Source: Dermatophagoides farinae
Lineage: Eukaryota; Arthropoda; Arachnida; Sarcoptiformes; Pyroglyphidae
Reading direction: 5' to 3'
DNA: 64,000 nucleotides
Assembly (NCBI RefSeq): GCF_024713945.1
Contig: NC_134683.1
Location: forward strand, 746,501 to 810,500
The translations under genes and the position numbers were made by a program. Each line of letters begins with the position of its first letter. Within the stretch, counting starts at the first letter, position 1. Below the pieces are notes generated by a model. The model made no database searches, was not told the origin of the DNA, and saw nothing but the letters and a program-made list of their open reading frames with translations. Shown one piece after another: positions 8,056 to 62,398 of the stretch.

Positions 8056-8840
8056 TCTTTGGATTGATTTTTTCTTCATTTCTTTACCACACACATAACG
8101 AAAATTCCATTTGTTTGGTTGGTTGGCTGGATGGATGGATGGTTAATTTCAGCAAAAAAAAAAGATACCGAAATGAAATGAAATCAGATTGATTGGAAAA
8201 TCTAATAATCAAATTCATTCGAGAATTGGAATTTTTTTTTCATTTTAAATTGAATATATAAGCCCAATGGATGCTCAATGTTATTGTCTCTCGTCATCAT
8301 CGTCATCACATCTCATATTCCTCATCATTACTTCTAAACAAAAACAGTTCTCTGGGACACACTATTCAATATGATCGATTGATTTTAATCAATTAATTAA
8401 TTCAAAGTGGACATATCCTAAACGATAGAAAAAGTGGTAAAAAAACATCATCATCATCATCATCATTAACAACCTCTCTACATGTGTGTCTTATCTTTGA
8501 TCATTTTTTTTTCTTGTTCTAATTTCAAAAAAGTGGCTGGAAAGATAAGAATTTTTTTTTTTTTTTTGGTTGTGAATTCATTCAATGACATCATCAGCGA
8601 AAAATATTACCTACGATTTACCAAAAATGAAAAAAACATGCCATCAACATTTGCAAGAGCTTGTTCCATTATATTGAAACCATTGTTTTGTTCCACCACC
8701 ACCACTACCATCATCAACAACAACAACAGCATTGAATTAAGATGTTTATTTGGTGTGTTTGAATTCTTAACAAACAAACAAAAAACAAGACAATTGTGTG
8801 TGTAGGTGTGTGTGTGTAACATATAATAAACAATTATAAA

Positions 8841-11800
8841 ATGTTACTACTTGCCTATTCTGAATATGATCTATATCGTGATGGCCAAATACCTGGCCGT
8901 GTTGGTCCATTACCAACATATTCACCGGATGAAGCTGCTTGTCTTAAAGATCGTAAATGGTGGGCATTCTTATTGTCCAGTATATTTACATTTTTAGCCG
9001 GAATTTTTATTGTTTTAATATATCGATTTTTTGAATTCATATTCTCTGGTGTATTATTTGGTTCATCATCATCATCACAACAACAACAACAATCCGGTGG
9101 ACAAGGTCCCGGTAATAAACAACAACAACAACAACAGCAACAACAACAAGGTCATCATGGTGGCAATAAAGATTTATTATTAGAATCATCATCATGTGAT
9201 CTTAAAGATCTCAAATCACATAGCCTAACCGATTCACAACCATTAATACAACAAGAATTAGGATGGATGACCGAAGCAAAAGATTGGGCCGGTGAATTAA
9301 TATCCGGCCAATCTACTACTGGCCGTATATTGGTCGTACTTGTATTCCTATTATCAATTGCATCATTAGTTATCTATTTTTTGGATGCATCCAAGTAAGT
9401 GGGCGATGGAAATGATTTTTTTTTTTTTTTTTTTGGTTTCACCATGAATGAAAACTTTGATAGAATTTTCTTACCAATTCCTTAGCCCGAAAAAAAAAAT
9501 TAAAAATAGAACAATATAATGTCCATGTAGTGTTGAAAACAAATCAAACTAATAATATCTATTCTATCTCTCTCTTTCTCTATTTTTTTTTCTTTCTAAA
9601 CATTCAATTTATAACAACTTTTGATTGGAAACTTTTTTTTTTTTTGGTTTCCATCCACCTACACACCTACCTACCTACACACCGATTTCCATTGAATGAA
9701 AACTTTTCTTCCTTTTGCTTATTTTTCAAATATAATAACAGTACTGGTCCACCTGGTGCTGGGTAATTATTCAAATAATCCACATAAACACAAACATGCG
9801 CACACATAATGCCTTGATTTATCATTGATCATTTTTTCTTTCTATTTTTTTCGTTTGTTTATTTCTTTCTCTCTTTGTTTGTTTGTTTGTTTTTTCGTTT
9901 CCTTTTTTTTCCTACTACAACACCTTCCTGTACACCTTCCTTTTATTGTTTGTGTCATTTGTTTTTTTTTATTATAAAAATCACTACCACCAAATTTTCT
10001 TCTTTACACATTTTTAATCCACAAACAACGTATCCATCCAACAAAAAAAAAAATTAATTACAAAACATCATTCATTCTCATCAAATTATACAATACACAC
10101 AGTGATAGTGTTGAAAAATGTCAGAAATGGAATGAAAATCCAACACAACAAGTGGATCTGGCATTGAACATCTTTTTTATGGTTTATTTTTTTATACGAG
10201 TAAGTTTTTCTTTTAGTCCAAAAAAAAAAAAAAATTTTTTTTTTTTTGTAATCGAATTTTTTGCTTTTTTATTTTCACAGTTTATAGCTGCTTCCGATAA
10301 ACTTTGGTTCATGTTAGAGCTTTATTCATTTGTCGATTATTTCACTATTCCACCGTCGTTTGTGTCAATATATGTGGATCGTACTTGGATTGGTAAGTGT
10401 AAAACTGATTTTTTTTCCGATGAAAACCCCTTTTTTTCTTTTCCCAGAAAAACAAAAACAAGTGAGAATAATCGACGAACAGGAAAAAAAATCAATAGAA
10501 TTAGCATTAGGCCAAGAATAATAAAATGAATGTATGAATCCCAGTCTGAAACTTTTTTTGCACACGAAAACTGGTGATAATTCAAAATGTTGAAATTTGT
10601 TTTGTTTTCTCATTGTTCAATTGTAATCCAAATATTTATTTTTCATTTCATTTTAGTTTGTTTTTTTTATCGAGCAAACGGCAAAAAATGAATTTTTCAT
10701 TGTAATTCATTCATGTTTCTTTTTTTATGTAAATAATGATGATGGTGATGGTGATGATTATTTTCTCGCTCACTCACTCAATCTTTTGACAAATAGAAAA
10801 AAATTCGATCATCATCACCACCGCCCATACACAAACACACGCAGACAGACATTTATTGTGAAATAGAATTTTGAATGTGAATTGTCATTGTGTCAGTTTT
10901 GTCAAGTTTTTTTTTATTAATTTTTCTTCGTCTTTTTTTTGTTTCATTTATTTTTTTAAAAAAAATAATGTGCAAGGTTTACGTTTTTTACGTGCACTAC
11001 GTTTAATGTCATTTCCAGATATATTACAATATCTAAATGTATTGAAAACATCATCATCGATACGTTTAGCTCAATTAGTATCGATTGTAGTGTCGGTCTG
11101 GTTGACGGCAGCCGGTCTCATACATTTGGTATGTGAAAAATGTTTTTTTTTCATCCTTTTATTGAATTTTTGTTGTTGTTGTTGTTGTTTAATTTCAATA
11201 CGTTTCTTCCAGCTCGAAAATTCTGGTGATCCATTAAATTTTGATAATGGCCATTTCATATCCTATTGGGAATGTGTATATTTTCTCATTGTTACCATGT
11301 CAACTGTAAGTGTTTCTTTTATTTAAATGTAAATCAATCAATCGATAATTTTTTAAATTTCATTTTCAAGGTCGGATATGGTGATATACATTGCACAACA
11401 ACATTGGGTCGTACATTTATTGTTTTATTTATTCTCGTTGGTTTGGTAAGTTATTTATGGATAATTATCTATGCAATGATCGTAGCTAAATTTATATATT
11501 TGATTGATTGATGATAAAAGGCCGTATTTGCATCATTGGTACCCGAAATAACTGAACTAGTTGGCCATCCATCTAAATATGCGGGAAATTATCAGAAAAA
11601 TCCAGCCAAAAAGTATGATTTTTAATGAAAAATTTTTTTTGATCGATGAAAGTATCTTGTTTTTTTTTGCGTATAGGCATATCGTTGTCTGTGGTCATAT
11701 CACATATGAAAGTGTAAGCCATTTTCTAAAAGATTTTCTACACGAAGATCGTGAAGATGTTGATGTTGAAGTTGTATTTCTGCATCGAAAACCACCGGAT

Positions 11801-14800
11801 CTGGAACTAGAAGGTCTGATTAAACGACATTTTACAACCGTAGCATTTTTCCAAGGTTCCGTAATGAATCCAATCGATTTGAATCGTGTCAAAGTACATG
11901 AAGCTGATGCATGTCTTGTATTATCGAATAAATATTGTCAAGATCCAGATGCAGAAGATGCGGCAAATATAATGCGTGTTATTTCAATAAAAAATTATAG
12001 CGATGATATTCGTGTCATCATTCAGCTAATGCAATATCATAATAAAGCCTATCTATTGAATATACCATCATGGAATTGGAAACGTGGTGATGATGTTATC
12101 TGTGTTAGTGAATTAAAATTAGGCTTTATTGCTCAATCATGTTTAGCTCCTGGTTTCAGTACAATGATGGCCAATCTATTTGCAATGCGTTCATTTAAAA
12201 CGGTTAGTTTTTTTTTCTAATTTTGTTGAAATTTTTATTTGTTCTAATTTTTTTTCTCATCAATCAATAGTCACCGGATACACCGCAATGGCAAAATGAT
12301 TATCTTTGTGGTACCGGTATGGAAATGTATACGGAAAATCTGAGCACAGCATTCGTTGCAATGACATTTGCTCAAGCAACAGAATTATGTTTTGTTAAAT
12401 TAAAATTATTATTATTAGCTATTGAAGTGAATAATGAAGATGGCCAAACACAGATTGTGATCAATCCAAAAGGTACTATCCGTATACAGCAAAATACACA
12501 AGGATTTTTTATTGCACAAAGTGCCGATGAAGTTAAACGGTAAATTTACATAACTGGATTGGATTTGATTGATCGACAAATTTAATTTCAATTTCCAATT
12601 TTTTTTCTGTTTCTAGGGCACTTTGGTTCTGTAAAAATTGTCACGAAGATGTTAAAGATGAAAAATTGATTCGTAAATGTAAATGTAAAAATTGTAAGTT
12701 TCAAATATCTACAAGATCAAAAAAAACCCATTAGTTTTACCAGTGTTTACTATGAAAAATCAGTGGCAATTTTATTTCAACAACCAGAAAAAAAACTTTT
12801 TTCCAGTTGAATATATATAATCGTTGTAAATTTTTCTTTACGCCTGTTCATTTGTTTTTTGTTTCATCTTCAATTTTTGTCCACCATTTTTTTCATTTTA
12901 TGTTTATGTTTTTTTTTGCATGATGATAAATATGTTTTGTGTTTTGGTTTGTTTACCATCGTTTATTGAGAGAAAACTTTTTTTTTTGCTTTCTTTATTT
13001 TTATTATTATCGTCCAAGTTTTGCTTTCATAAAGTTGTGTAAAGTTTTGGTCGTCATTGTCGTTTTTTTTGTTTTTGTTTTGTATGTTTCATCCCCATAA
13101 TTCTTTTGTAGGGAGAGATTCTGATTCTGATTCCTAATCTCTCAAATTTCAATTGTCTATCTAATCGGATTCTATTCTTGATAGAATTCCTTGGTTGTCG
13201 TGTTTTCTTGCATGAATCTTTCTGTGTTTTTTTTTTGTTTTTTTTCATTATCAAATTCCAACATTGATAGATAAAGTCAATCGATTTTATTCCACACCAC
13301 ACACATTTCATTAAAGCATCAAATTTTTTTCTCTCTTTCTTTTTCTTTGTATCATGAAATTCTGCCACTGCTGCTGCTGCTGCTTCCATGGTTTCTTTGG
13401 GCTTATATTACCATAAAAATGTCATTGCTTAAAAAAAAATCAACCACAAAAAAAAATATTCTCTGGTTATCTACCCACCCGTTCAAAAACAACCGAATTC
13501 CATCATTTCTCTTTATTCCATATATCTATGTGTGTGTGTGTGCTTTGCTTGTGTTTTTTCATGTGATTTATCCATTTATCCATCCATCCATCCATTCATC
13601 CAGTGGGCGCAATATTCAAAAAAGGCGTTCGTGTTGTACAAGCGGTCAATAGTAATGTTATTAATCGTCATTCAAATACGATTACCACAAGATTATTGGA
13701 TTCTACTGATCATCGTTCGTATTTTGTTTTATTCATATTTATTACTTCCACATTTTTTTTCTCTCTGTGTGCTTTATTTATGGTGCCATATATTCTTTTT
13801 TTTTTGTTTTTTCGTTCATCTAAATTTATTGTTATCGTTTTTTTTTGTGTTTTGAAAATTTTCCATCTTTTTTTTCCCCCCACACTCCAGTCTCTTTTAT
13901 TCCCATCTTTCGATCAATTTTTCATTTGTCCCAATAATTTTTCTGTGTGTGTGTGTGTGTGTGTGCGTGTGTGTTTGAACAACAAGAATTTCTGAATGAA
14001 AAGTGAAAAAAGACACTAATCGATGATCCATTAAAAAAAGTCAATTTAGAAACTTTTTCTTGATCCAAAACAAACAACAGGCACCAGTTAGATGATGAAT
14101 ATTTTTTTTCAATTTTTTATTTTTTTAAATTTAAATTTTAAAAATTTTTCTCTTTCACTTTAACTAATCGCTAATCGAATTGAATTAAATTACACAAACA
14201 AACAAACAAAAACATCAACATAATAATAATAGACATATTAATAGATGAATCATGTCATCTAATCGATATGAACAATCATCAAATCGATAATAATTGTCAT
14301 CAACGTATCGATAGTATTAGTAGTAATGATCAGTCATCATTACAACCACAAGATACTAGTGGCGGCGGTAATCATCATCATCATCGTCATCATCATCATC
14401 GACAACAACTACAACAATTACAAAGTTCAAATTTAATGGCCACCACCACTTCACGTAGTACAAGTAATATTCCTGGTTTATTATTATCAAAAAATTCTGC
14501 AACACCACCAACATCATCATCAACAACAACAACGTCGTTTATTAATTCAAATAATAATTTATCATTGATGAATATAACGACAAATCTTTCAATTATTGAT
14601 AGTAGTAGTAGTAGTATGATGATGATGAATAGTCCACAATCACAATGTTCAACAACAGCAACAACAATTTTACCGAAATTATCAAGAAAATTTCGAGGTA
14701 AAACTTTTTTTTTGTTTCACAATATAGTAGGTTAATTATTTGTTCTTGTGCTGTTTTATGGTTGTTGTTGTTGTTGTTGTTGTTGGCACATTTTTTTTCA

Positions 14801-17547
14801 TATGATAGCAAAATCTCACCGGTATTTGTTCATTCGTTGTTATATGGAATTTCGTAAATGATAATTTCAAAAACTAATTTTCACCAAAAAAAAAATCAAA
14901 TTAAATTTGCACCTGAAAATTAAAAAAACACATTCCACACACGCACACACCACATCACACACTTTTTTGGATTCTTTTTTTTGGTTCTGCATGTGTTTTT
15001 CTAATTTCCGTTTTCATTCATTTTCCTATATATAAAAATGATTTATATTTTTTCTAAAATACCAACTAATTCATCTTTTTTTCTTTCCATTTCATTTAAA
15101 AAAAAAAATTTAAAATTCTGCTAAATTTATGTGTGCGTTTTGCCATTTTTGTCTCTCTCTCTTTCTCTCTCGCTCTCCATGTGTATTCTGTCCACGTTCA
15201 ATGTCATTCATCGTCATCATTTTTAAAAAAAAATTTCCGCTTTTTTTCTGCTCAAATAATCACTAAATTTATGTCTGTGTTTTCTACCTGCGTGTGTATT
15301 TTTTAAATAGCAGATGGTTTTGGTGATCCAAGTGAAAGCAGTAAGTGTGTTTTATGTGTTTGTTTGTTTTTTTGTTTGCTTTGATCTATCTATCCATCCA
15401 TCCACCCACTCACATACATCAATTGATGATGTGTATGTGTGTATATTATTTCGTTATTTTATTGTCATGTTGAAAAGTTAAAGTTTCCGTTTGAAATTTT
15501 TGTTGTTTATAAAAATAAATTTAATATAATATATTGACGACGATAATAATCATTTTTTTTTTATTTCACTTGTTTCCAGTGCATCTAATACCACCTACAT
15601 CTGGTTCATCTACTGGTGGTAGACGTGCAGCACGTAATGGTAAACATCAACTTGGTAATATTGCCGGACAATTAACTGCTGCTATCGGTACTAAACAACA
15701 ACAACAACCGAATGCACATAGTCCGGTAAAACAATCGGGAATTACAGCCATCCCTGGAACGGCAACATCTCAACAACAACAACCTACTGGATCATCTTTT
15801 GGACCACAAATGCATCTAGCATATGAAGTGAAAAAATTAATGTAAATATATCTAATTAGTGAATGGATTTAAGTTTTGAAATTTTTTTTTTAAACTTAGG
15901 CCAGCTGCAGCACGTCCTACAGATGGTGGGACATCCGTATCGGTTGCACCATCAGCCGGATTTATTGATTCAAAAGATTTTGATTTTGAAAAAACTGAAA
16001 TGAAATATGATTCAACCGGCATGTTTCATTGGTGTCCAGCTAGGCCAATTGAAGATTGTATATTGGATCGTAATCAGGCAGCAATGACCGTATTGAATGG
16101 ACATGTTGTTGTTTGTTTGTTTGCCGATCCAGATTCACCATTGATTGGTTTACGTAATCTGGTTATGCCTTTAAGGTTTGTGTATTGTTCATATATTGAG
16201 TTTATTTCTAATTCATTCAAATGAAATCATCATTACAGAGCTTCAAATTTTCATTATCATGAACTGAAACATGTTGTTATTGTTGGTAATGTTGATTATT
16301 TACGTCGTGAATGGAAAATGTTACAGAATCTACCAAAAATTAGTGTATTGAATGGATCACCATTATCACGTGCTGATCTTCGTGCTGTTAATATCAATCT
16401 ATGCGATATGTGTGTCATTTTATCGGCTAAAATATCATCTAGCGATGATCCAACATTGGCGGATAAAGAAGCCATTTTGGCTAGTTTAAATATCAAAGCA
16501 ATGACATTTGATGATACGATCGGTGTTATTACGAATAATGCTGCTTGTCCTGATCCTGGATCACGAATACCGGGTAGTTCACCACCACCATTAGTTGTCC
16601 AAAGACGTGGATCTGTTTATGGTTCAAATGTTCCATTGATAACCGAATTAGTCAATGATACGAATGTACAATTTTTAGATCAAGATGATGATGATGATCC
16701 GGATACAGAATTATATCTGACACAACCTTTTGCTTGTGGTACAGCATTCGCTGTGTCCGTATTGGATTCATTAATGTCCACGACATATTTCAATGCAAAT
16801 GCATTAACACTAATACGTTCTTTGATAACTGGTGGTGCCACCCCAGAACTAGAGCTAATTCTAGCTGAAGGTGCCGGTCTTCGTGGTGGTTATTCAACAT
16901 TGGAAACGCTGAAAAATCGAGACCGATGTCGAGCTGGACAGATATCATTATATGATGGACCATTGGCTAAATATGGTGAAAGTGGCAAATATGGTGACCT
17001 ATTTGTCGCTGCCTTACGACAATATGGAATGTTATGTATTGGTGTTTATAGGTTTCGTGATACATCTGGTACGGCTGAAGCATCCACAAAACGTTATGTA
17101 ATAACAAATCCACCAAATGACCTTATACTCATACCAAGTGATATGGTAAACAAAAAAAAAGTTTTATTTTTTACAGTTTTAACACTTTTTCTCCCCTTCC
17201 CCTATTTATAGATATTTGTTTTGTTACAATTTGATCCTGGTCTTGAATATTATAAAGATCGTAGCCGTGGTGCATCTAGACAATTATCATCAACAAGCGC
17301 TACATCCGGTGCTATGGGAACCAATAATTTACAATCCGGTAGTGTTGTTGGTGGTATTGGTGGTGGACCAGTAGTTGTATCACAACAACAACAACAACAA
17401 CAACCGCAATCACAACCACCACAATCATCACAAACATCGAATATATTATCATCGGGCGTAAATACATCAATGATATCTAATAATCCTACAATGCCTACAG
17501 TGGCCGGTCAACATGGTAATATTGTTACTGGACAGCCACCAAGTTGA
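8841..17547 (+). CDS. slo: Calcium-activated BK potassium channel (Slowpoke)
   Basis: Pore-forming subunit of the large-conductance voltage- and Ca2+-gated K+ channel of neurons and muscle. Coding exons: 8841-9394, 10103-10199, 10281-10392, 10977-11128, 11213-11305, 11371-11445, 11521-11612, 11677-12202, 12271-12539, 12617-12693, 13604-13651, 14245-14697, 15311-15340, 15580-15841, 15900-16175, 16239-17145, 17212-17547. All junctions are GT/AG and in phase, giving 1452 residues. Visible parts: S0 ([15 protein letters not shown]), S1 ([15 protein letters not shown]), S4 ([15 protein letters not shown]), selectivity filter TVGYGD split by an exon junction, RCK1 ([16 protein letters not shown]), RCK2, and the calcium bowl ([16 protein letters not shown], about 16670-16715). 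The S0-S1 linker is expanded with poly-Q. Exon 13604-13651 and the start of exon 14245 are the least certain because that linker is variable; 14233 is an alternative start for the latter. Upstream first exons may exist, although in-frame stops precede the 8841 ATG. Confidence 0.95.
9742..9762 (+). other. slo: Candidate 21-nt cassette microexon of slo
   Basis: Lies in the slo intron 9395-10102. It is preceded by ATAACAG and followed by GTAATT, is 21 nt long and keeps the reading frame. Inclusion adds seven residues (TGPPGAG) between S1 and S2, giving [19 protein letters not shown]; skipping gives [12 protein letters not shown], which resembles the fly protein. Phase and both splice sites are seen; inclusion in any transcript is inferred. 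Confidence 0.6.
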
Positions 17548-33296: not shown

Positions 33297-34768
33297 TTTT
33301 GACAGAATTTGATAATGTTCAATGAATTGTCTTGTCAATTGGCTAAATTCAATTAATTAAAAATTGATGAATGAAAATGAACAACAACAGCAAACATTCG
33401 AACGAATGAATAATGAACGTGAAAGCGAAACCAGAGACAAAAAAAAAGAAGAAAACATTAAGATTGACAAAAATGAAAATAGAGAAAAAAAATAGAATTA
33501 GAAATACTCACACAGCGCGACACAGATACAAACAAAAATGGACTTGACTTGTTGTTGGTTTTTTCGTTTTTTTTCCACGAAACGAGAAGAAAAAAAAACA
33601 AATTAATATTCAAACGAAAATTAAATTTGGAATGTTTTTTTTTCTTTTGCTCAAAGATGATGATGGTGATGGTGATAATGTCCGATGTTGATGACCGAAA
33701 GATAGAAAAAAAACCAGTATTTGACCGAAATATCAATAAATTTTTCTTCTCTGGTTGGTTATAAAACAAAGTGTCACCACATTAATTCACAATTTATCGT
33801 TTTTAGAAAAAAAAGAGTCAGCCAGTTTGACAAGCTAGACCATACCAATTTTTTCTATTTTATCATCATTTTGCACACAGCACACACACACATACTGTTT
33901 TTTTTACCAAGAAAAAAAACAGTTAGCAGCAGCAGAAGCAGCAGCAGCCATCATCGATAGGGAACTCCGTCAATCATCATTTCGTTTAAAGCCGTTTTTT
34001 TTTGCGCACAGTTTTTGGCACCACCCAATTTTTTCCTATTTCGATTCACAAGAATACAATGTGTGTGTGTGTGTTATTAAATCGCTACATCTAGCGCGAA
34101 TCATTCATATAGGACGTATATATTTTTTAAAGTTCAAAATTTTTATTTTTTATTTATTATCATTATCCATGTAATTTCATTTATTATAATCATCATCATT
34201 AAATATAATATTTCACTGTGTTATGTGTGTGTGTGTTTGTTTTTTTTTGGTGTCAAAGGGAAAATACAATCGGACAATGTGTTAGAGTCACACAGAAAAA
34301 AAAAGACAAAAAATTTTTTGAAAACAAGAAAAAAAAACTGGACACAAATAAATAATTGTTGTTGTCTTGTTTTTTTTTTATCTTTCGAAAATACATTGTT
34401 GATATCGTTGTTACTGATGATTGTGATGATAATCGATAATCGATGATTTTGACGGCCACAACGATGACAACGATGACATTGATGATGATGATGATGATGC
34501 AGATGACGATGATTGGATGAATTTTTTTGTTTTGATAATCACGAATTTTTTTTTTGAAATAAAGAATATCATAAATACTGTATATATGGTGTGGGTATAT
34601 GTGGTTGTTATTTGATGAATTCACACACACACAATAGATTTTTTAAAAAAAAACCAATGAAGAGAAAAAAAAATGACAAAGAATTTGAAATTCAAGAATT
34701 TTTTCGGGTTTATTTGTTTGTTTGTTTGTTTGTTTTTTTCGGGTTTTTTTTTCACCATTGCCATTCAA
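33297..34768. other. Septin promoter and EGMRF-gene 3' flank
   Basis: Should hold the septin promoter and leader next to 33296 and the 3' end of the peptide precursor next to 34768. Only low-complexity sequence was seen, with no supported exon. Confidence 0.55.
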
Positions 34769-37191
34769 TTAGAATCTCATTCCTTCACCATTTAAAATGT
34801 CCTCGTTTCCGATGATCTGCTTCCTATTTTGATTTCTATGATTTGTATGATTATCATCGATAAAATAATAATAATAATCATTATCATCATCATCATCATT
34901 ATTATTATTATGATTATATTGATTTTCATCATTATTTTTGTTGTTTTCATTATATTCATCATTTAATAATTTTATTAATTTTCTTTGTAACTTGCCTGTT
35001 TGTCTTTGTTGTTTTGATTGTTCGTTTGATGATTTTTGTTGTTGTTGTTGTTGATCCTTTTTATCATCATCATCATTCTTTTTAAAACGCATCCCTTCTT
35101 TATCCAATAATGATGGACCATTATTACCAGCAGCGTTATCTTTTTTAAAACGTAATCCTTCACCATCCAAAACAGATTTTCTTATTATAAGATTTTTATT
35201 CAATAATTCATTGGGATTTTTTTTAAAACGAAATCCACCATCTTCATTCAATAGAAATAATGGCCGTTTAAAACGCATTCCTTCATTATTCAATAGGCTT
35301 TGATCGGCTCGCCGAAAACGCATACCTTCATCATTCAAAAGGCTTGGATCAGCTTTCCTGAAACGCATACCTTCGTCATTGAATAATGGGTCTGGTCGCC
35401 GGAAACGCATTCCTTCATCATTCAATAGGTTTGGATCAGCTTTCCGGAAACGCATGCCTTCCTCATTTAAGAGGCTTGGATCTTTTTTAAAACGCATTCC
35501 CTCATCATTGAACAAAGGATCTGGACGCCGGAAACGCATTCCTTCATTATCCAATAAATTTGGTTTTTTAAAACGCATTCCTTCATTATCCAATAAATTT
35601 GGTTTTTTAAAACGCATTCCTTCATCATTGAATAATGTATCTGGTCGTCGAAAACGCATTCCTTCATTATTCAATAATGGATCTGGACGACGGAAACGCA
35701 TTCCTTCATCATTGATTAATGATGAATCTTTTTTATTCAATATTAATAATGGAAATGCAGACGACGATGATAATAGACGTTGATTGTTCATAATGGGAAT
35801 ATTTTGATGAAAATATGAATTTTCTAATGATGCTAATCCAATACCATCATTATTATTATCATCATCATAATCATCAATAATTGGTGCGATGAATGATGAT
35901 TTTTTACGAAAACGTAAACCTTCATCATTTAATAATGATTTTTTATATGTATTTGTTGGTGGTCGTATTATAATTGTTGCCATTGGATGTTGTTCACGTT
36001 GTTGTTGTTGTTGTTGTGGATTTTGATGCTGACGAACCAAATCAACGTTATCGTCATTATTATTATTATTATTATCTGAACAGGATTTTTTTTTATTCCA
36101 AAAGACAAGTGAATATTTTGATATTTGAAGTGGCAATTGGTGGTGGTGGTAATTGGAAAAAAATGAAAGAAAAATGAAATTAATAAATAACAAAAAATAA
36201 ATCAATAATCAAATCAAATATATGACACAATGTTGTTGTTTTTTAATCTTTCCGATCATCAACAAATGGTTTTCTATCCACCATTTTTATTAAACATTTG
36301 TTGATGATTGGAAAAGATTTAGATTTTTTTTTCTCTATTGATTGTCATCGATTGATCTAGAAATTATTATTATTTATTATCAAGTTTAATATGAAAAATC
36401 AATATTTTTTTTTTATTAATCCATCGCCATCATCATCATCATTATTATGTATTGAACATCAAATATTGGTGTTGACAGAAAAACAAAAAAACAAAAAAAA
36501 AAACTGTGAAACGATTCACAGATTGAGATACAGTGGAAAAAATTTTGAAATGTCAACAAACAAAGTGTTGTGTATATAAAATTAGAAAAAAAATGACAAC
36601 GATGACAGTTCCAGAAAATTGTGATTTATTAATTGTGATAAAGATGTGATGATGATGATGATGATGTCACATAATCATTGGATTGTCATTGTGCCATGCA
36701 TGTGTGTGTGTGTGTTTACGTAAATTCTGTCATTTAGGAATTATTATTACTATAATAATAATGACAATCGATTTGATTTGAACATTTGTCAAATAGACAT
36801 TTGACAAAGATACGATTCTGTGGTTCGGAGGGGAGCATGAATATACGATGAAGAATTAAAAAAGTGGGGTGGAGAATCCCAAATTCAATGGAAAATCCAA
36901 ATTCTTATTTACACACACACACACACAAACTAGTGGATAAACTTTTTTTTTTTTTTTTTGAAACTTTGTATATTGATTTCCATGGCAAAAGAAAAAACGA
37001 CAATTTTGTTATTTAATGAGAAAAAAAAACAAATTCATTCACTATGTACATCGACACACACACACACAAATAAAGTCTCATTTCCGGTGATACAAAAAAT
37101 TCAATGATTTTTTTTCTCTCTTGATCATATTATCAGAATTTTTTTTCTTTCGTTTCATTCGATATCCTGGCTACAAACAAACAATGTGTTT

Positions 37192-37226
<35 letters not shown>

Positions 37227-39567
37227 AATCAACAAAAGGCAATATCATCGATACAAACAAATATCCTGGAGCTGAAATTTGAATTAAACTCTGACTTTTT
37301 GATGTTGATGTTGATTTTGATTTTGATTTTGATTTGATTTTAATTTCAATTTCGAAATACAATATATCCACGCGTCAACAACAAAAATACAACAGGGTCA
37401 AAAATTCAAAAAAAAAGTGATTTGTTTGAATGAGTGAAAAAAAAATTCAATCGATTCATAAAATGAAAATTCAATTGACGATTGATTATTATTGACAAAT
37501 CAATATAGATATATAGATTGCAATTTATATTGTCAACAACAACAACCAGAACAACAATGATGATGATGATGAATATGACGACAATTGCTATTTTTTTTTT
37601 TTGGTAAAAAATCCAATCAAATTGAACAATAGAAAATTGTTGATGATTTCAATTTTGTTTATTTGCTTCTGGCTTTTGTAAAATTTTGATGAAATTTTTT
37701 TTAAGAATTTTTTTTTTTAACTTGTGGTTTTCAAATATTTGATAGAAATTCATTATTGAATTGATGATGATGGGCTATTTACACATTCTGGTTCCGGTTT
37801 TTTCGTTTTGTTTGTTTGTTTGACGTTGTATAAATATCAAATAAAATCATTTGATTTTCAATTTTATCCAGAAAAATCTTAACTTTTTCTTTGCAAAAAA
37901 AAAAAAAATTTAATTATAATCAAAAGCTCTCTATCTCACACGGGTTTTTTTCTTCTGTTTATCTCAAATAACAGAATCATCATCATCAAGAATCTCTTAT
38001 CGATTTTCATCATCATCATCATCATCATTGGCACAGGGGGAAAAAATCGATAAATTCAAATTAGTTACACATTAAATAAGAAAACAACGAATGAATAAAT
38101 AAAGATAGAATGAGAATATATAAATGCAACAATATGCAAATGTATGAACGAAAAACAAAAAAAAAAAATTTGTCACATCATCATCGTCGTCAAAGATGAA
38201 GATAATAATCGTCGATGATACAATGAGGTTTCTCAAATCTCTTGGGGTTTATTTCGTTCACTTTTTTCTTCTTTTTTTCAATTCATTTCGTTGAGTTTCT
38301 CACACATTTATAATAAATGCAACAAAGAAAACAGAATCCTTTTCCTATTAGAATATTCATGATGATGGAAAAGAGATAAAAAAAAATTTTTTTCATGGAA
38401 TGGAAAGAAAATGGCAAAAAATTCTTTATTGAAAAAAAAATAAAATGAAATAAAATTTTAATCTCATCACATTTAACCCACTAAATAAATAAAACACATT
38501 CCATCATCAACAACAACAACAACAACGAGAATGTTGTTCTGTATATTCCTGTATGTGTTTGGATGTTGATGATAATGATGATGGAATGTGTTTTGTAATA
38601 CGTGACGTAATGTGATACTTAATCTGCATAATAATAAGGTTTTTTTCTTGTTCATCTGATAATGAATAGTAAGTATATGACTGATTATCATTCGCACATA
38701 CACACACATAGGATGGTCATATGAGAATATCTATCATGTGTTTGTGTAAAAAAAAAAATCTAAATTCTTAATTCCAATTACAAATATCTAGTAGTGATAA
38801 TCATTATTGATGTCAAAAATGAATGTCAGAATATTTCATCATCATCATAATAATCATATAATTAACATCGATATGATGATGATTATGAAACATGTGTCAT
38901 CAATATGTTGTGTTAGTCAATTCAATGACTTGATAATAAATTAATGTATTATTAATCAATACACGCACACACACACACGAAAGAATTTTGATTTATTGAT
39001 CAATCAAAAATCGATTGAATTACACACACATAGGAATAGGATTGATGACACAACAACTTGAAATGATAGATATGGTAGATATTCGTGTCTGTGTGTGCAT
39101 GTATGTGTGTGTGATACTTGAATTATCGTCTGTCATTATTCGTGACCATAAATTATGATGATGATGGAAAAAAAATTTGAAATTTGATACTTTTCTAATG
39201 ATTCAAATATATGGAAAAAATTCCATTTAAAAGAATTAAACTTACAAAATTGTTTCCATAGATTAAAATGATGATTTGTTGGTGTTGATAAAAATGTCGA
39301 TAATGGTAATCGATTCATTTTATTGTGTTGATTTGATGCAGCCACAATTTGTGGCTGCCTCTGTTGTTGTTGTTGTTGTTGCTGCAGTTGTGGTTGTAGT
39401 TGTCTTTCGGTAAATATCTCTGAATTGACCTGATTATAAATTGTTGGCCATTGTATTATGATTGAATAGATCATTATCTGCATCCATAATAATGAATAAA
39501 TCGATGATGATGATGATCGACCTTTCTGTTGTGGAAATGATAGCTTTTCAATTATTGAATTCATCAT
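34769..39567 (-). CDS. Multi-copy EGMRF peptide precursor (candidate neuropeptide)
   Basis: Proposed exons: 39567-39246 (donor T|GTAAGT) and 36075-34769 (acceptor TTCAG), separated by a 3.2-kb intron; both are phase 1 and give 542 residues. Exon 1 has ATG ATG at 39567 and a hydrophobic segment (IYSLLWMQIMIYSIIIQW) that could be a signal peptide, then a Gln-rich part. Exon 2 carries about 16 copies of a 12-14 residue unit, such as PDPLFNDEGMRF and ADPSLLNDEGMRF. Each is followed by a dibasic pair (RR, KK, RK or KR), with acidic Asp/Asn-rich spacers. The last copy (DILNGEGMRF) ends at the stop codon. This is the layout of a prohormone cleaved at dibasic sites. No Gly follows RF, so the products would not be amidated, unlike FMRFamides. 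I do not recognise it as a known family. The exon 1 link is inferred; exon 2 coding is very clear. Confidence 0.7.
35072..35725 (-). repeat. Coding tandem repeat array (EGMRF units)
   Basis: About 14 degenerate units of 36-60 nt encoding L-[LFD]-[ND]-[DNE]-E-G-[ML]-R-F plus a dibasic pair. Further copies lie at about 35905-35945 and at 34769-34800. One unit reads EDGGFRF, two read EGLRF across the gene, and one position is decayed (LLNKNLIIRK). Synonymous differences between units show the array is not a recent slippage product. Confidence 0.85.
37193..37222. repeat. (CA)15 microsatellite
   Basis: Uninterrupted CA run inside the proposed long intron of the EGMRF precursor gene. Confidence 0.95.
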
Positions 39568-40980
39568 GTTGTTGTGTTGTGGCCAAAATAAACTTCGATC
39601 AATCAATTGATGGAAATTATTTGAATTGAATTTTTGTTCAAAAAAAGCAACAAATTTTTAAAATGAAACAAAAAAATTCTGTAAATAATGGAAATGTTTG
39701 GAAAATTTTTTTTCTCTTCACAAAATCATCACACATCGTTGAAAATCGAACATTATTATTGTTGGTGTTACTATTTTTTATTTTTTATTTATTTTTTTTT
39801 TTGGATAATCAACGAATGACCGTTGCTGTTGAAATGGATGATCGCACTATTTATATATCCGTTTCAGAAGTGAATTTTTTTTTTCGCATTCCGCTTGCTC
39901 GGTATATTAATATGTGTGCGTGTGTGTGTGTAATTTGTTGTGCGCACAATTTTTTTTTCTATAAAAAAAAAACAAAACAAAACAAAAAAATCATATATAG
40001 CCTATATTTTGACGCCCATAAGATGTGTTTTCACTTTTTTTTTTTTTGGACATCGGCAACAAACATCATCCATGACGATCGTCGATCGACCAGAACCTTA
40101 CCAAAAAAAAGCCAAATTTTATAGTGTCGATCATCATCATGATGATAATTTCTTTATTTCATCAGAAATCAATCGATGAACAGGGAAAATTGAAAATCAT
40201 TTGAAATCAATTCAAATCAAATTTAAAAAAAAAATTTCAATTACAAAAAAAAACACCCAGGCACGCACAGAATTCTGAAAAATTCTGAACAAAAAACCAT
40301 ACCATATATACGATAATACACACACAAATGATGATTTTTCATTATTGAAAGAGAAAAAAAAACAACCAATTTTCCAATGACAAACAAGAAAAAAAATTGC
40401 AGAAATTTATTACTTGAAATTGAATTTAATGATAAATAAATCTGAAAGATTTAATTTTTTGTTGGCCGTCTGAAATGATGATTTCCTTCCGTATAACAAA
40501 ATGAAATGAAATGAAATTTTCATCATTTGATGAGAAATGATGTGCGTGCGTGTGTGGGTGGGTGGGTGTTTCCGGGCAAAAAACTCTACTGAGTGAGAAT
40601 AATAGCAAAAAAAAAAAAACACCAAAATTCTACATCAATGTGGAATATTTTTTATTTTTTTTATGAAACAATAACAAAAATATTTTTTACTCCGGTCATT
40701 ACCTATAAATCAATCGTATTGTTACGAAAAATTTTCATCATTATCATCATCGCCGTCGTTGTTGTTGATCTCTAGGGTTTGTGACAAATTTTTTTTCCCA
40801 TTCTCTTTCAAACTGATAATAAATGGCAATTCGTTATTATTGGCTATTGTCCATTGTTGTTGTTGTTGTTGTTGTTGTTTTTTTTAATTTAATAAAATTA
40901 ATGTTTTCACATCATCAAGAATCGAGGCCATTGGTGGTGGATAATAATAATGATATTGATGTTTTATTTTAGTGTCTGTT

Positions 40981-49155: not shown

Positions 49156-51994
49156 ATGGGCAATATCAATACGGTTGGACCGAATGAAGCATTGATTGTA
49201 TCAGGTTTGTTTTGAATTTTTTTTTAATAACAAAAATTTTTCGAATTAAACACCAAAGTTTAAAAGAGCCACGAAAGAGACAAATGACAAAGATTCAAAT
49301 TTTAAACAAGTAAACAATTAGTAATTAGTAAATGAAAATGACAAAAGACAGGAAAAAAAACAATGATGAGCCAGCTCAAAGTTTGATTTGATTGTTGATG
49401 TTTTGTTTTCAATGTGTTTGTGTGCATTGTTTTCAATTCAATATAATGAATGTTATACTAATTAATTACCAAATTTATCATCATCGATTGGATAATCACC
49501 ACCAGCAGCACCACCACCACCACCAGCACCACCATCATCAGCTGCATCAATATCGGCCGCTTCTGAATCATATTTTGGTTCATATTTCGATTCATACATA
49601 TGTTCATAACTTGGTTTATATGATTCTTCATGATATGATGGATATGATGGATATGATGGATATGGTATAGCGATATATTCTTTCTTCTTTTTATGACATG
49701 GATTAATCATTAGTAGTTCACCGGATTTCTTTTTTTTACCACCACCACGCATCAATAATTGTGGTGGACAGCCATCTTCACCACCGATAATTACTATATC
49801 GTCACCTTTATCTTTACCACCAGCTTCAACAATATTGGTTGTAAATGATGAAAAATAAACGATGATTATGGTGATTGCCAAAAGTGAATATTTAATCATT
49901 TTTAGTTTATCTGTTGATACAATTGAAGAAGATGATCGAAACTTTAGTGTTTTGCCCGTTATGTTCGTGAATGTTGTTGGAACTTTTTTTCCATTATTCA
50001 TCGACTTTATATACGATACCAACATTTAGGTTGATTGTAACCATTTTTTCCGTTTTTTTTCCATCCGATCGTAAATTTCTCACTTTATTTTATTATCGAT
50101 CATTACTAGTTATAACCAGGTATGAACAACAACAGTATATGGATCGGTTAATCATCGTAATAATCAAAATTGAACAAACAAAAATTCACTAAATCATTAC
50201 AATGATCCAGAAAAACACAACATATATGTTTCCATAAATCAAATCAAGTTTGTTAGCAAAAAAAAAAAAAAAAATTTCCTTTCTGGTTCATTTGAATTTA
50301 GTAATACAAAAATTGGTGCCTGAATTATTGTGTGTGTGTGTGTGTATGTTTTTTGTCAAAAGGAAATGATGGTGTTTTGTTTTTGGTTGTCTATAATTAA
50401 ATTTAATCGTTATAACCTTCATTATCATTTTGTGATTCAGTGCATTCTCATTAATAATCTTGTTGTTGTTGTTGCTGTTTTTTTTTCATTCATTATCTAA
50501 ACAGGTGGATGCTGTAGACCAACGAAAAAAACCTACGTTGTTGGTGGCTGGTCATGGTCCTGGTGGCTATTGTCCGATGTTCAAACGTATGTGACATATA
50601 CAAACACACCCATAAATCGATTCTAATTTTTTTTTTCGTTTATCTAGAATAAGTTTAGAAGTAATGACATTGATGCCTAAATGTGAAAATGTTGAAACAT
50701 CTGAAGGTGTACAGTTAACCGTTTCGGGTGTTGCACAATGTAAAATTAAAAATGAAAAAGAACAATTATCAATTGCTTGTGAACAATTTCTAGGAAGAAA
50801 TGTTGATTATATTAAAGGAATATTACAACAAACATTGGAAGGTAATCTACGTTCAATTCTTGGCACAATGACTGTGGAAGAAATTTATCGTGAACGTGAT
50901 CAATTTGCATCGTTAGTACGGGAAGTTGCATCTTCAGAATTGGAACGTATGGGTATTGAAATATTATCATTCACAATTAAAGATGTTTATGATAATGTTA
51001 ATTATCTGGAATCATTGGGCAAAGCAAAAATTGCCGAAATCAAACGAAATGCAGCCATTGGTGTTGCCAATGCTGAACGTGATGCAGGCATCAAAGAAGC
51101 GGAATGTCAAAAAGCAGCAATGGATGTAAAATATTCGGCTGATGCTAAAATCGAAGACGCTACACGTGATTATCTAACGCAGAAAGCAATGTTTGAAGCC
51201 GAAGTTAATGCAAAAAAAGCAGAAGCTAATCTAGCGTTTGATTTACGTTCAACACATCTACAACAGGAAATATCGAAACAGCAAAAATTCATTGAACTAA
51301 TTGAACGAAAAAAATTGACTGAATTACAGGACCAGGAAATTGTTTTGGCTGAAAATGATCTAAAAGCTAAAGTTAATTTATTAGCCGATGCTCAATTATA
51401 TGAAATATGTCAATTAACTGAAGGTAAAAAACGACAAATATTAGCGGCAGCTGAAGCCGATGCTGAACGTATCAAATTGATTGGACAAGCAGAATCAGAT
51501 GCGGCAGAAATACGTGGCCGTGCTGAAGCGCATGGAATGTTGACTAAAGCTTCAGCATTAAAACAATTTGGTGAAGCTGCCATATTATCATTAACGTTGG
51601 AAAATCTACCAAAAGTATGTATCATTGATTGATTGAATAACAAATAATTGACAATTGTACAACGAAAAAACAAATGACAACAACAATAATCATTAGTATT
51701 AGTATAACAGTGAAACTAATAATCAGAACAAAACAAATAATCCTCATTTTTTCCAACTAATTTCAGATTGCAGCAGAAATATCGGCACCATTATCGAAAA
51801 CTGATGAAATTGTTTTACTTAGTGGTGATACTGGTAATCTAACAAAAGTTGTTTCACAAATTCCACCTACATTACAAGCGATGACCGGTATCGATGTGAA
51901 AAAGGTAATAAAAAAAAATCTTGTTTTCCATTTGTACAATTCATATTTTTTTCTTTTGATTTAGACATTATCAAAAATAACCGGTGCCCATTGA
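49156..51994 (+). CDS. Flo2: Flotillin-2
   Basis: SPFH-domain scaffold protein on the inner face of plasma-membrane microdomains and endosomes. Exons: 49156-49204, 50505-50586, 50648-51614, 51767-51904, 51965-51994, in phase; 421 residues. It begins MGNINTVGPNEALIVSGGCC: Gly2 for myristoylation and Cys19/Cys20 for palmitoylation. The SPFH/PHB domain follows (WSWSWWLLSDVQT, EQFLGRNVDYIKGILQQTLE, ERMGIEILSFTIKDVYD). A long Ala/Glu-rich coiled coil follows (NAERDAGIKEAECQKAAMD), and the end is LTKVVSQIPPTLQAMTGIDV. The N-terminal match to flotillin-2 rather than flotillin-1 is strong. Intron 1 is 1300 bp and hosts a secreted-protein gene on the other strand. A poly(A) signal is at 52250-52255. 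Confidence 0.95.
49462..49899 (-). CDS. Secreted Lys/Tyr-rich protein nested in flotillin intron
   Basis: Single-exon frame; the ATG at 49899 gives 145 residues with a clean signal peptide (MIKYSLLAITIIIVYFSSF) ending near VEAGG. The frame continues upstream to 50025, but a TATA box at 50005-50013 predicts transcription start near 49978, so 49899 is the first usable ATG. The mature part has two Lys clusters (GGGKKKKSGE and HKKKKEYIAI), two Cys, the repeat YPSYPSYPSY, a Tyr-rich segment (YKPSYEHMYESKYEPKYDS), an acidic Ala/Asp stretch and a poly-Gly run. Short, secreted, Tyr/Gly-rich proteins of this kind are often cuticular or adhesive; function is not known. The KKKK plus Pro motif recalls the two genes at 28-31 kb. 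Confidence 0.75.
   Translation of the reverse strand: MIKYSLLAITIIIVYFSSFTTNIVEAGGKDKGDDIVIIGGEDGCPPQLLMRGGGKKKKSGELLMINPCHKKKKEYIAIPYPSYPSYPSYHEESYKPSYEHMYESKYEPKYDSEAADIDAADDGGAGGGGGAAGGDYPIDDDKFGN
50005..50013 (-). promoter_or_regulatory. TATA box for nested secreted gene
   Basis: TATATAAAG on the minus strand, 106 bp upstream of the ATG at 49899, inside flotillin intron 1. It supports an independent antisense promoter and decides the start codon. Confidence 0.55.
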
Positions 51995-60516: not shown

Positions 60517-62398
60517 ATGGCTCGTAATATTAAAGGTAAAAAAGCTTTGAAAAAACGTCCAACAGCTTATATGACACGTAGTGAAGCATTGCAAAAATTG
60601 CAATTATCATTAAAAGATTTTCGGTAAGTTTTTTTTTGGATGATAATTCATTTAGAAAATCTTATCGTTTTTTTTTGTTGTTGTTGTTGTAGACGTTTAT
60701 GTATACTAAAAGGAGTGTATCCAGTTGAAGCAAAAAAGACAAAATCACAAAATACTTCACATACTAAAACCTATTATCTTCGAAAAGATATCCTGTACCT
60801 TAGCCATGAACCAATCATATGGAGATTCTGGGATTTTAAGGTATGTGTAAGAATGACAAATAAAATTGAAAATTTTAAATTTCAAAATCATTATTTATAG
60901 ATATTCATGAAACGTATGGCCAAAGCAAAAGGTCGTCGTGACAAGGAATGGATACAAAGAATACGTGAGAATAAACCATTCTATAAATTGGATCATATTG
61001 TCAAAGAACGTTATCCAACAATAATCGATGCACTTCGTGACATGGACGATGCTTTATCCATGGGTTTTCCTATATGCAATGTTTGGCAAATCTAAATCAT
61101 TGCCATTAGAATTGATTGAATTGAGTCGTCGTTTTACATTGGAATTTATGTATTACGTAATGGAAACGAAATCTTTGCGAAAATGTTTCATCTCTATCAA
61201 AGGCTATTATTATGAAGCGAATATTATGGGCCAAACAATACGTTGGATTGTTCCACATCAATTTGTAATGAAACGTGTTCCGGACGTTGATTTTCAAGTG
61301 ATGAAAACATTCACCGAATTTTACGTAACATTATTAGGTTTTGTCATCTATAAACTTTATGTTTCAAATTCATTCATATATCCACCAAAATTTTTTGAGA
61401 ACAAAAATATTAAAGAAGATGAAGAGAAATCTGAAGATGAAAATGATGATGAATATGATGATTCGGATGAGATTATCGCTGCATTGAATCATCCATTGAT
61501 TAATCGAAATGAATCGGATAATCAAATACTTGATGAACAATCGAAAATTGATAATTTTGAAACAGAATTAGCCAATGATGATGATGAGATTAAATTCGGT
61601 TCATCAGTGATGACATTTCATCAGCTACAAAAATTGCAGAATTTATTTGCCGGATTAAAATTCTTTATCAATCGTGAAGTACCACGTGAAGCACTTTGTT
61701 TTGTTATTCGTTCATTTTCCGGACAAGTTTCATGGGATCGAAATCTTTTCAACGGTGCTACATTCGATGAAGATGATGAAAGCATTACACATCAGATTGT
61801 TGATCGTGAAATTCCTAAACGTTTCGTTAATCGTTATTATATTCAACCACAATGGATTTTTGATTCAATTAATTCCCGTAAATTATTACCGGTTCAAAAT
61901 TATTTTATCGGTACAAAACTTCCACCACATTTAAGTCCATTTGTTGAGGAAAAAGTAGGTGATTATATTCCACCGGAAAAAGAAATGTTTGAAAATCCTC
62001 AACAACAACGTATCAATGACGAAAACGATGATGTTGATAGTCAAATGGATGAAGATGTCGATGATGATGATGATGATGATCAACAAGCAGACGAAATTGA
62101 CAATGATGACAACGAAGACGAAGAAGAACAACAACAGCAACAAATGATGGTGAAAAAAGGTAAACCAATCGAAATGAATCGATTTAAACAGAGCAAACAG
62201 AAACAGGATGAAGAAAAACGTTTACGTGTAATGATGATGCCAAAGAAGAGGAAAAAACTGTATGATTTAATCATTAAAAGCCAGAAAAAACAAAATCGTG
62301 AAACAGAAAGATTACAACGTAAACGACAAGACTATGATGAACGTCAACGGCGACAACAAAAATCAGCTGTGAATAATAAAAAAATGAAACAAAATTGA
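60517..62398 (+). CDS. PES1: Pescadillo homologue (one apparent frameshift)
   Basis: Nucleolar component of the PeBoW (PES1-BOP1-WDR12) complex needed for 27S/32S pre-rRNA processing and 60S assembly. Exons 60517-60623, 60693-60840, 60901-62398; about 583 residues, 588 in human. N-terminal pescadillo domain: [68 protein letters not shown] domain: [19 protein letters not shown] to [19 protein letters not shown], followed by [19 protein letters not shown]. An acidic Asp/Glu/Gln tract and a basic coiled tail end the protein. Within the GGG at 61062-61064 the frame shifts by one: with one G fewer it reads [20 protein letters not shown], as in the family. Both flanks are intact, so an indel error is likely. 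Confidence 0.93.

Follow-up and report, generated by a model that had tools for sequence, protein, structure and literature searches.

What does the tandem array of EGMRF-ending units on contig NC_134683.1 of Dermatophagoides farinae encode? A sequence-only reading had placed an exon with about 16 such units at 34769..36075 of the window (by which we mean the whole 64,000-nucleotide stretch of DNA analysed) and had seen in it the grammar of a neuropeptide or peptide-hormone precursor. Our analysis confirmed the frame, counted 16 units and added the strand: the gene lies on the minus strand, where a 479-codon open frame running from 36208 to 34769 spans the reported 34769-36075. A further exon upstream (39567-39246) joins exon 2 (36075-34769) in frame via GT/AG across a phase-1 intron, and the predicted spliced precursor comprises 542 residues. 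The features of the gene are as follows (a slash marks a splice junction).

39851..39857, minus strand: TATATAA, a TATA-like box plausibly placed some 290 bases ahead of the ATG; a consensus match only.
39246..39567, minus strand: exon 1, with the ATG at 39567, a basic n-region, a hydrophobic signal-like core and a Gln-rich spacer.
Intron beginning at 39245, minus strand: exon 1 donor T/GTAAGT, phase 1.
36076..39245, minus strand: intron of 3170 bases, GTAAGT ... TCCTGTTCAG, phase 1.
34769..36075, minus strand: exon 2, the remainder of the precursor, with all 16 units, acidic and Asn/Gln-rich spacers and the stop codon at 34771-34769.
35078..35938, minus strand: 15-unit stretch with a basic pair after each unit, SLLNDEGLRF-RKK first.
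34769..34819, minus strand: last unit, QIIGNEDILNGEGMRF, with the stop codon directly after it.
34709..34714, minus strand: poly(A)-type signal AATAAA, plausibly placed some 55 bases past the stop; a consensus match only.

The acceptor TCCTGTTCAG ends at 36076, which makes 36075 the first base of exon 2, and the GTAAGT at 39245 is the sole one on the minus strand within 36000-40000. At the N-terminus of the precursor, K8, K15 and R17 precede the hydrophobic stretch SIYSLLWMQIMIYSIIIQW. The hydrophobic core occupies residues 23-45 (39501-39433), with a basic n-region before it and a Kyte-Doolittle peak of 1.69 over 15 residues; as judged from this hydropathy profile, the signal-like core begins 22 residues in. 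By eye, a comparably long region leads up to the hydrophobic signal core of this genome's FMRFamide precursor. Following the -3/-1 rule, VNS-E after the hydrophobic stretch is a plausible predicted site of signal cleavage. The precursor contains no cysteine, and in a three-frame translation of the intron, inspected by eye, no Cys-domain exon was assigned. Pfam returned no match above its cut-offs for the precursor. HipN (E 0.00027, 21 bits against a cut-off of 23) aligned with residues 304-319, about one repeat unit, and was taken as chance, while TFIIA and DUF3527 were weaker than HipN and likewise below cut-off.

The EGMRF ending described earlier for the units was found in 13 of the 16 and is not invariant, since two units end in EGLRF (residues 154-163 and 408-417) and one in GGFRF (379-391). 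Similarly, the dibasic pair said to follow each unit follows 15 of them (6 KK, 5 RR, 3 RK, the first of these being RKK, and 1 KR), and the sixteenth, QIIGNEDILNGEGMRF, has a stop codon in place of the pair. With this last unit flush against it, the stop would do the job of a convertase cut, as expected of a processed precursor. After SLLNDEGLRF-RKK and a spacer, the array runs from DSSLINDEGMRF-RR (from 35728) through DNAAGNNGPSLLDKEGMRF-KK; NPNELLNKNLII-RK, which lies between basic pairs among the units, looks like a decayed unit. The predicted products named in the sequence-only reading were all correct, with two copies each of PDPLFNDEGMRF and PNLLDNEGMRF and one of ADPSLLNDEGMRF. Glycine precedes the basic pair in 0/16 units and no G[KR][KR] site occurs anywhere in the precursor, so that the predicted peptides would be free acids, not RFamides, and amidation is not expected. 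The computed free-acid [M+H]+ values are 1437.647 for PDPLFNDEGMRF, 1305.626 for PNLLDNEGMRF, 1464.679 for ADPSLLNDEGMRF, 1402.678 for PDPLLNNEGMRF and 1198.537 for SPFDDEGIRY, a peptide of the second gene described below; the amidated forms would be about 0.984 lower.

The 16 cores are written in 11 distinct DNA spellings. The claim that core and pair stay fixed despite synonymous differences holds for the core as strong constraint against looser flanks, not as invariance: compared pairwise across the 15 internal units, its five codons gave pS 0.469 and pN 0.065 (ratio 0.14) and the four codons upstream gave pS 0.489 and pN 0.270 (ratio 0.55). These figures are descriptive, since tandem duplication of the units, possibly with homogenisation by gene conversion, leaves the pairwise counts dependent on one another. 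The pair is fixed in kind, not in identity. Its codons showed pS 0.899 and pN 0.411, with every amino-acid change an exchange of K and R, and 83 of 270 single-base changes at basic codons keep K or R. We used the 15-internal-unit figure instead of an all-synonymous count over the 13 EGMRF units, which is circular in that the units were chosen by that string; a residue-shuffle test was trivial and was given no weight.

Of the 15 matches to the exact E-G-M-R-F DNA pattern across the genome (62.4 Mb), 13 fall in the window cluster, and the reversed-pattern control matched once. Neither match outside the cluster belongs to an array: one runs antisense to a long ORF and the other lies in a frame with stops. 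Within the window, in six-frame ORFs of at least 100 aa, 12 occurrences of EGMRF and two of EGLRF directly precede a basic pair, and only four other 5-mers recurred before basic pairs, each two to three times and all in the antisense frame of the array. On the strand opposite the array (35304-35783, plus), an open frame of 159 residues mirrors the repeat and was taken as a by-product of minus-strand coding.

Two further loci, both on C4, a contig other than that of the window gene, bear on the interpretation.

G000:C4:4236382-4239620, minus strand: EGIRY array gene, a tentative three-exon model of 830 residues with its start at C4:4239620.
G000:C4:4244398-4244981, plus strand: possible third gene, single-copy, a two-exon frame with one EGIRY-RR at 4244736.

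A genome search with the window array retrieved C4:4236385-4236591 at 45% identity and E 2e-11, a value that is optimistic because the query is a repetitive composite of window units; the antisense strand of the window array appeared in that search at E 0.004 and 0.26. In the reverse search, a contiguous C4 array query returned the window array at E 2e-13 and 47% identity. The arrays of the two genes find each other, and the comparison covers the arrays only. The EGIRY array also matched C3:6694764 weakly (E 0.55, 25%). In the C4 array, SPFDDEGIRY-KK occurs five times before the final copy, APHMFNDEGIRY, which runs straight into the stop. Among the five SPFDDEGIRY units, which were picked by string and are all the full units of the array except the last, seven nucleotide columns vary, all of them synonymously, with 0.198 expected per random change.

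In the C4 gene model, for which splice sites were chosen manually, the hydrophobic core is MALCISLMMMMMITVQPTHC and the introns are of phase 1. A candidate donor before the array, GAAG/GTATCC, leads into DKEGIRY-KK-SPF..., and an alternative donor, CACTG/GTAGTC, is also in frame. Left unspliced, the exon before the array reads EGIRF-KR-DIHNTG... and then reaches a stop, with a GTAAGT donor past that stop; this end could represent a product of alternative splicing or of a retained intron. The two array genes are alike in their E-G-x-R-aromatic core with acidic residues before it, in the KK after five array units, in the stop-flush last unit and in the phase-1 intron after the signal exon. They differ in that, in the C4 gene, I replaces M and Y replaces F, the units are shorter at 10 residues, the N-terminal part is long and has Cys residues, and an extra intron precedes the array.

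Genome-wide, the pattern E-G-[I/L/M/F]-R-[F/Y]-basic-basic gave 19 matches: 12 in the window gene (rather than 15, as the pattern omits some Arg codons), six in the C4 array gene and one at C4:4244736. Since the reversed control gave three, the lone match proves little, and its layout and nearness carry the argument for a third gene. This frame runs opposite in direction to the C4 array gene, 4.8 kb from the start of the latter, and has a short signal-like start and a two-Cys stretch (DDCADLY...RLYDLCLRS) directly before EGIRY-RR. BLAST yielded no alignment between this stretch and the two-Cys stretch of the C4 array gene, which is pieced together, so the case for a common origin, drawn from core, layout and nearness, is weak. 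A PDB search with the third gene returned no convincing relative (best E 0.7), a genome search with its second exon found only itself, and pieces of both C4 proteins had no Pfam match above cut-off. In the prokaryote and viral collections, 25 and 17 stretches fitted the pattern, none of which was confirmed.

We regard it as an even bet that D. farinae, and probably astigmatid mites widely, possess an undescribed hormone family of two to three genes with free-acid EG(I/L/M)R(F/Y) ends, in which two genes became arrays with a stop-flush last copy, the single-copy two-Cys gene may be near-ancestral and the receptor is mite-specific.

The signal-like upstream exon joined in frame, the stop-flush last copy, the constraint on the core and the second array gene support the precursor grammar noticed at the outset. 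The window gene is best read as encoding a putative precursor of many copies of a neuropeptide or peptide hormone, belonging to a family with free-acid EG(I/L/M)R(F/Y) ends. As far as sequence can speak, the case for a peptide precursor is strong, and a neuropeptide, as opposed to a gland or other peptide, is likely. We put the probability that the gene product is a secreted D. farinae prohormone with multiple peptide copies, most likely neuronal or neurosecretory, at roughly 0.78. Under this reading, the signal sequence would direct the precursor into the regulated secretory pathway, where a prohormone convertase would cut after the paired basic residues and a carboxypeptidase would trim these residues off. 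About 16 acidic peptides of 10-19 residues with a free-acid C-terminus, such as PDPLFNDEGMRF, PNLLDNEGMRF and ADPSLLNDEGMRF, would result. They would most likely be released from neurons or neurosecretory cells and may act on a G-protein-coupled receptor, perhaps one common to the EGIRY peptides of the C4 gene. Neuropeptides are cut out of larger precursors and act on GPCRs (excerpt of PMC5818035). Proprotein-convertase P-domains gave five exon hits in the genome, on two contigs, one of them with an internal stop codon. Counting against the prohormone reading, 14 of the 15 window sites are KK, RR or RK, compared with KR in the orcokinin units of this mite; the start of the hydrophobic core 22 residues in and the low complexity of the spacers also weigh against it.

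A secreted precursor cut in the same way could instead be made by a gland, the gut or the reproductive tract and supply seminal, salivary or defence peptides. The DNA itself does not tell which tissue is involved, and a secretion signal with basic pairs also serves furin-type enzymes outside neurons. However, typical antimicrobial peptides are cationic, whereas the five EGMRF and two C4 EGIRY peptides computed are acidic, with a net charge of -1 to -2, and a constant C-terminus on short peptides in tandem is what receptor ligands typically show. We consider such an origin unlikely.

Somewhat less probable still, although compatible with the prohormone reading, is a highly diverged member of a known arthropod family (orcokinin/pedal peptide, RYamide/luqin, sulfakinin or FMRFamide) that no longer has its amide glycine. 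A C-terminal MRF is common to sulfakinin and FMRFamide, RY is the ending of RYamide, and orcokinins are likewise multi-copy and not amidated. Against this, the standard motifs of orcokinin and FMRFamide each occur in a gene of their own in this genome, and that of sulfakinin in an exon; since these lie elsewhere, the window gene is none of them. Orcokinin was rejected because the N-F-D-E-I-D-R motif is absent from the window precursor and an array gene with the motif lies on C8. This locus (G000:C8:1587000-1590000) has seven FDE[I/M/L]D units ending in KR without glycine, four of the seven reading FDEMD, not FDEID; genome-wide, the FDEIDR pattern matched seven times, once in the C8 array and at six single sites. 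FMRFamide was set aside on the lack of an amidation glycine in the window units and the presence of a separate gene on C4 (G000:C4:1052200-1053600), in which five MRFG units carry glycine in 5/5 and a KK site also occurs. Sulfakinin was likewise rejected, the window gene lacking Y-G-H-M-R-F-G, which has a single genome match on C2 (G000:C2:3874658, DLDYGHMRFGRR). For RYamide/luqin, the marks sought in the window precursor were missing, with no Gly before the pairs and no Cys.

It is very improbable that the product is an uncut structural or adhesive protein whose repeat simply happens to include the basic pairs. The array is indeed made of tandem repeats of 39-45 bases, the spacers are low-complexity (Asn, Gln, Asp), and no Pfam domain exceeds its cut-off. 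Yet the spacing of the pairs varies while the five residues preceding them hardly do, K and R swap freely within the pair, and the last copy is pairless and ends at the stop. The C4 paralogue, whose repeat is 36 bases long and whose N-terminal residues are unlike those of the window units, nevertheless retains the basic pairs and repeats the stop-flush end, which counts against a structural repeat. That the locus is a chance open frame and not a gene is scarcely credible, since, rich in simple repeats as the region is, the 479-codon frame, the in-frame splice to a signal-like exon, the core pN/pS of 0.14 and the paralogue all stand against it.

The sequence-only reading knew of no arthropod family with an EGMRF ending, which agrees with the open-licence literature, among the matches listed. 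By their titles, no biology paper there contained EGMRF, and searches with EGLRF, EGIRY, EGIRF and similar strings returned no arthropod peptide precursor among the matches listed, as judged by title or start of abstract. A few EGLRF/EGIRY-type matches among those listed concern food or marine hydrolysate peptides. In D. pteronyssinus, 23 neuropeptides were counted and several named (excerpt of PMC12105342), and 38 neuropeptide genes were predicted in a tick (excerpt of PMC7828734). Excerpts of these two papers and of a further tick paper (PMC4116169) name no family with an EG(I/L/M)R(F/Y) ending. Within the open-licence literature, the family is probably unnamed.

Elsewhere in the window, a small secreted Cys-rich multi-exon protein (43967-43194, minus strand) was seen by eye, with two Cys blocks, CQADICSGECINGGKKGGKCTTCNCDTC and CIEWKCSQVCRKQGYKGGACNICHCETC, whose spacing presumably resembles that of CS-alpha-beta (defensin-like) proteins. 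From the look of their ORFs, we take the other neighbours to be a slowpoke-type potassium channel (8820-17211, plus), a septin (33356-31566, minus), a PPP phosphatase (46534-46070, minus), a flotillin (50616-51632, plus), a DNA2-like helicase (60271-56839, minus) and Pescadillo (61025-62398, plus). The genome also encodes a protein of group 5/21 type that equals Der f 21 across the aligned stretch after the first residue, and at a further locus the identity to Der f 2 is 99.2% over 119 residues; these two identities mark the genome as that of D. farinae. A Der f 2 paralogue at G000:C1:5872227 shows 43.6% identity to Der f 2 over 110 residues.

D. farinae is a major indoor-allergen source, and little on its peptide signalling emerged among the open-licence matches listed. 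A free-acid family of up to three genes would offer exact masses, short synthetic ligands and candidate orphan receptors, all directly testable, and if the family is limited to mites its receptor would be a possible target for selective control. Two arrays of one motif in one genome are also useful for studying how peptide copy number grows.

Among known systems, RYamide/luqin precursors recall the C4 relatives, which end in R-Y; the C4 units differ in having no amidation glycine, and the Cys pair that luqin precursors carry at their C-terminus was not seen after the peptides. Sulfakinin shares the C-terminal M-R-F after acidic residues and differs in its Y-G-H-M-R-F-G. FMRFamide-like precursors are alike in being multi-copy, in their M-R-F endings and in the KK site of the mite's own gene; they differ in the amidation Gly, present in 5/5 units there and in 0/16 of the window gene, and in a FREPMRF-type core unlike that of the window units. 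Orcokinin/pedal-peptide precursors differ in the FDEIDR motif, lacking in the window gene, and in their other C-terminus. That family is known for multi-copy precursors, paired-basic cutting and non-amidated products, and, as in the mite's own C8 gene, these traits, including the missing amidation glycine, are the ones it shares with the window gene.
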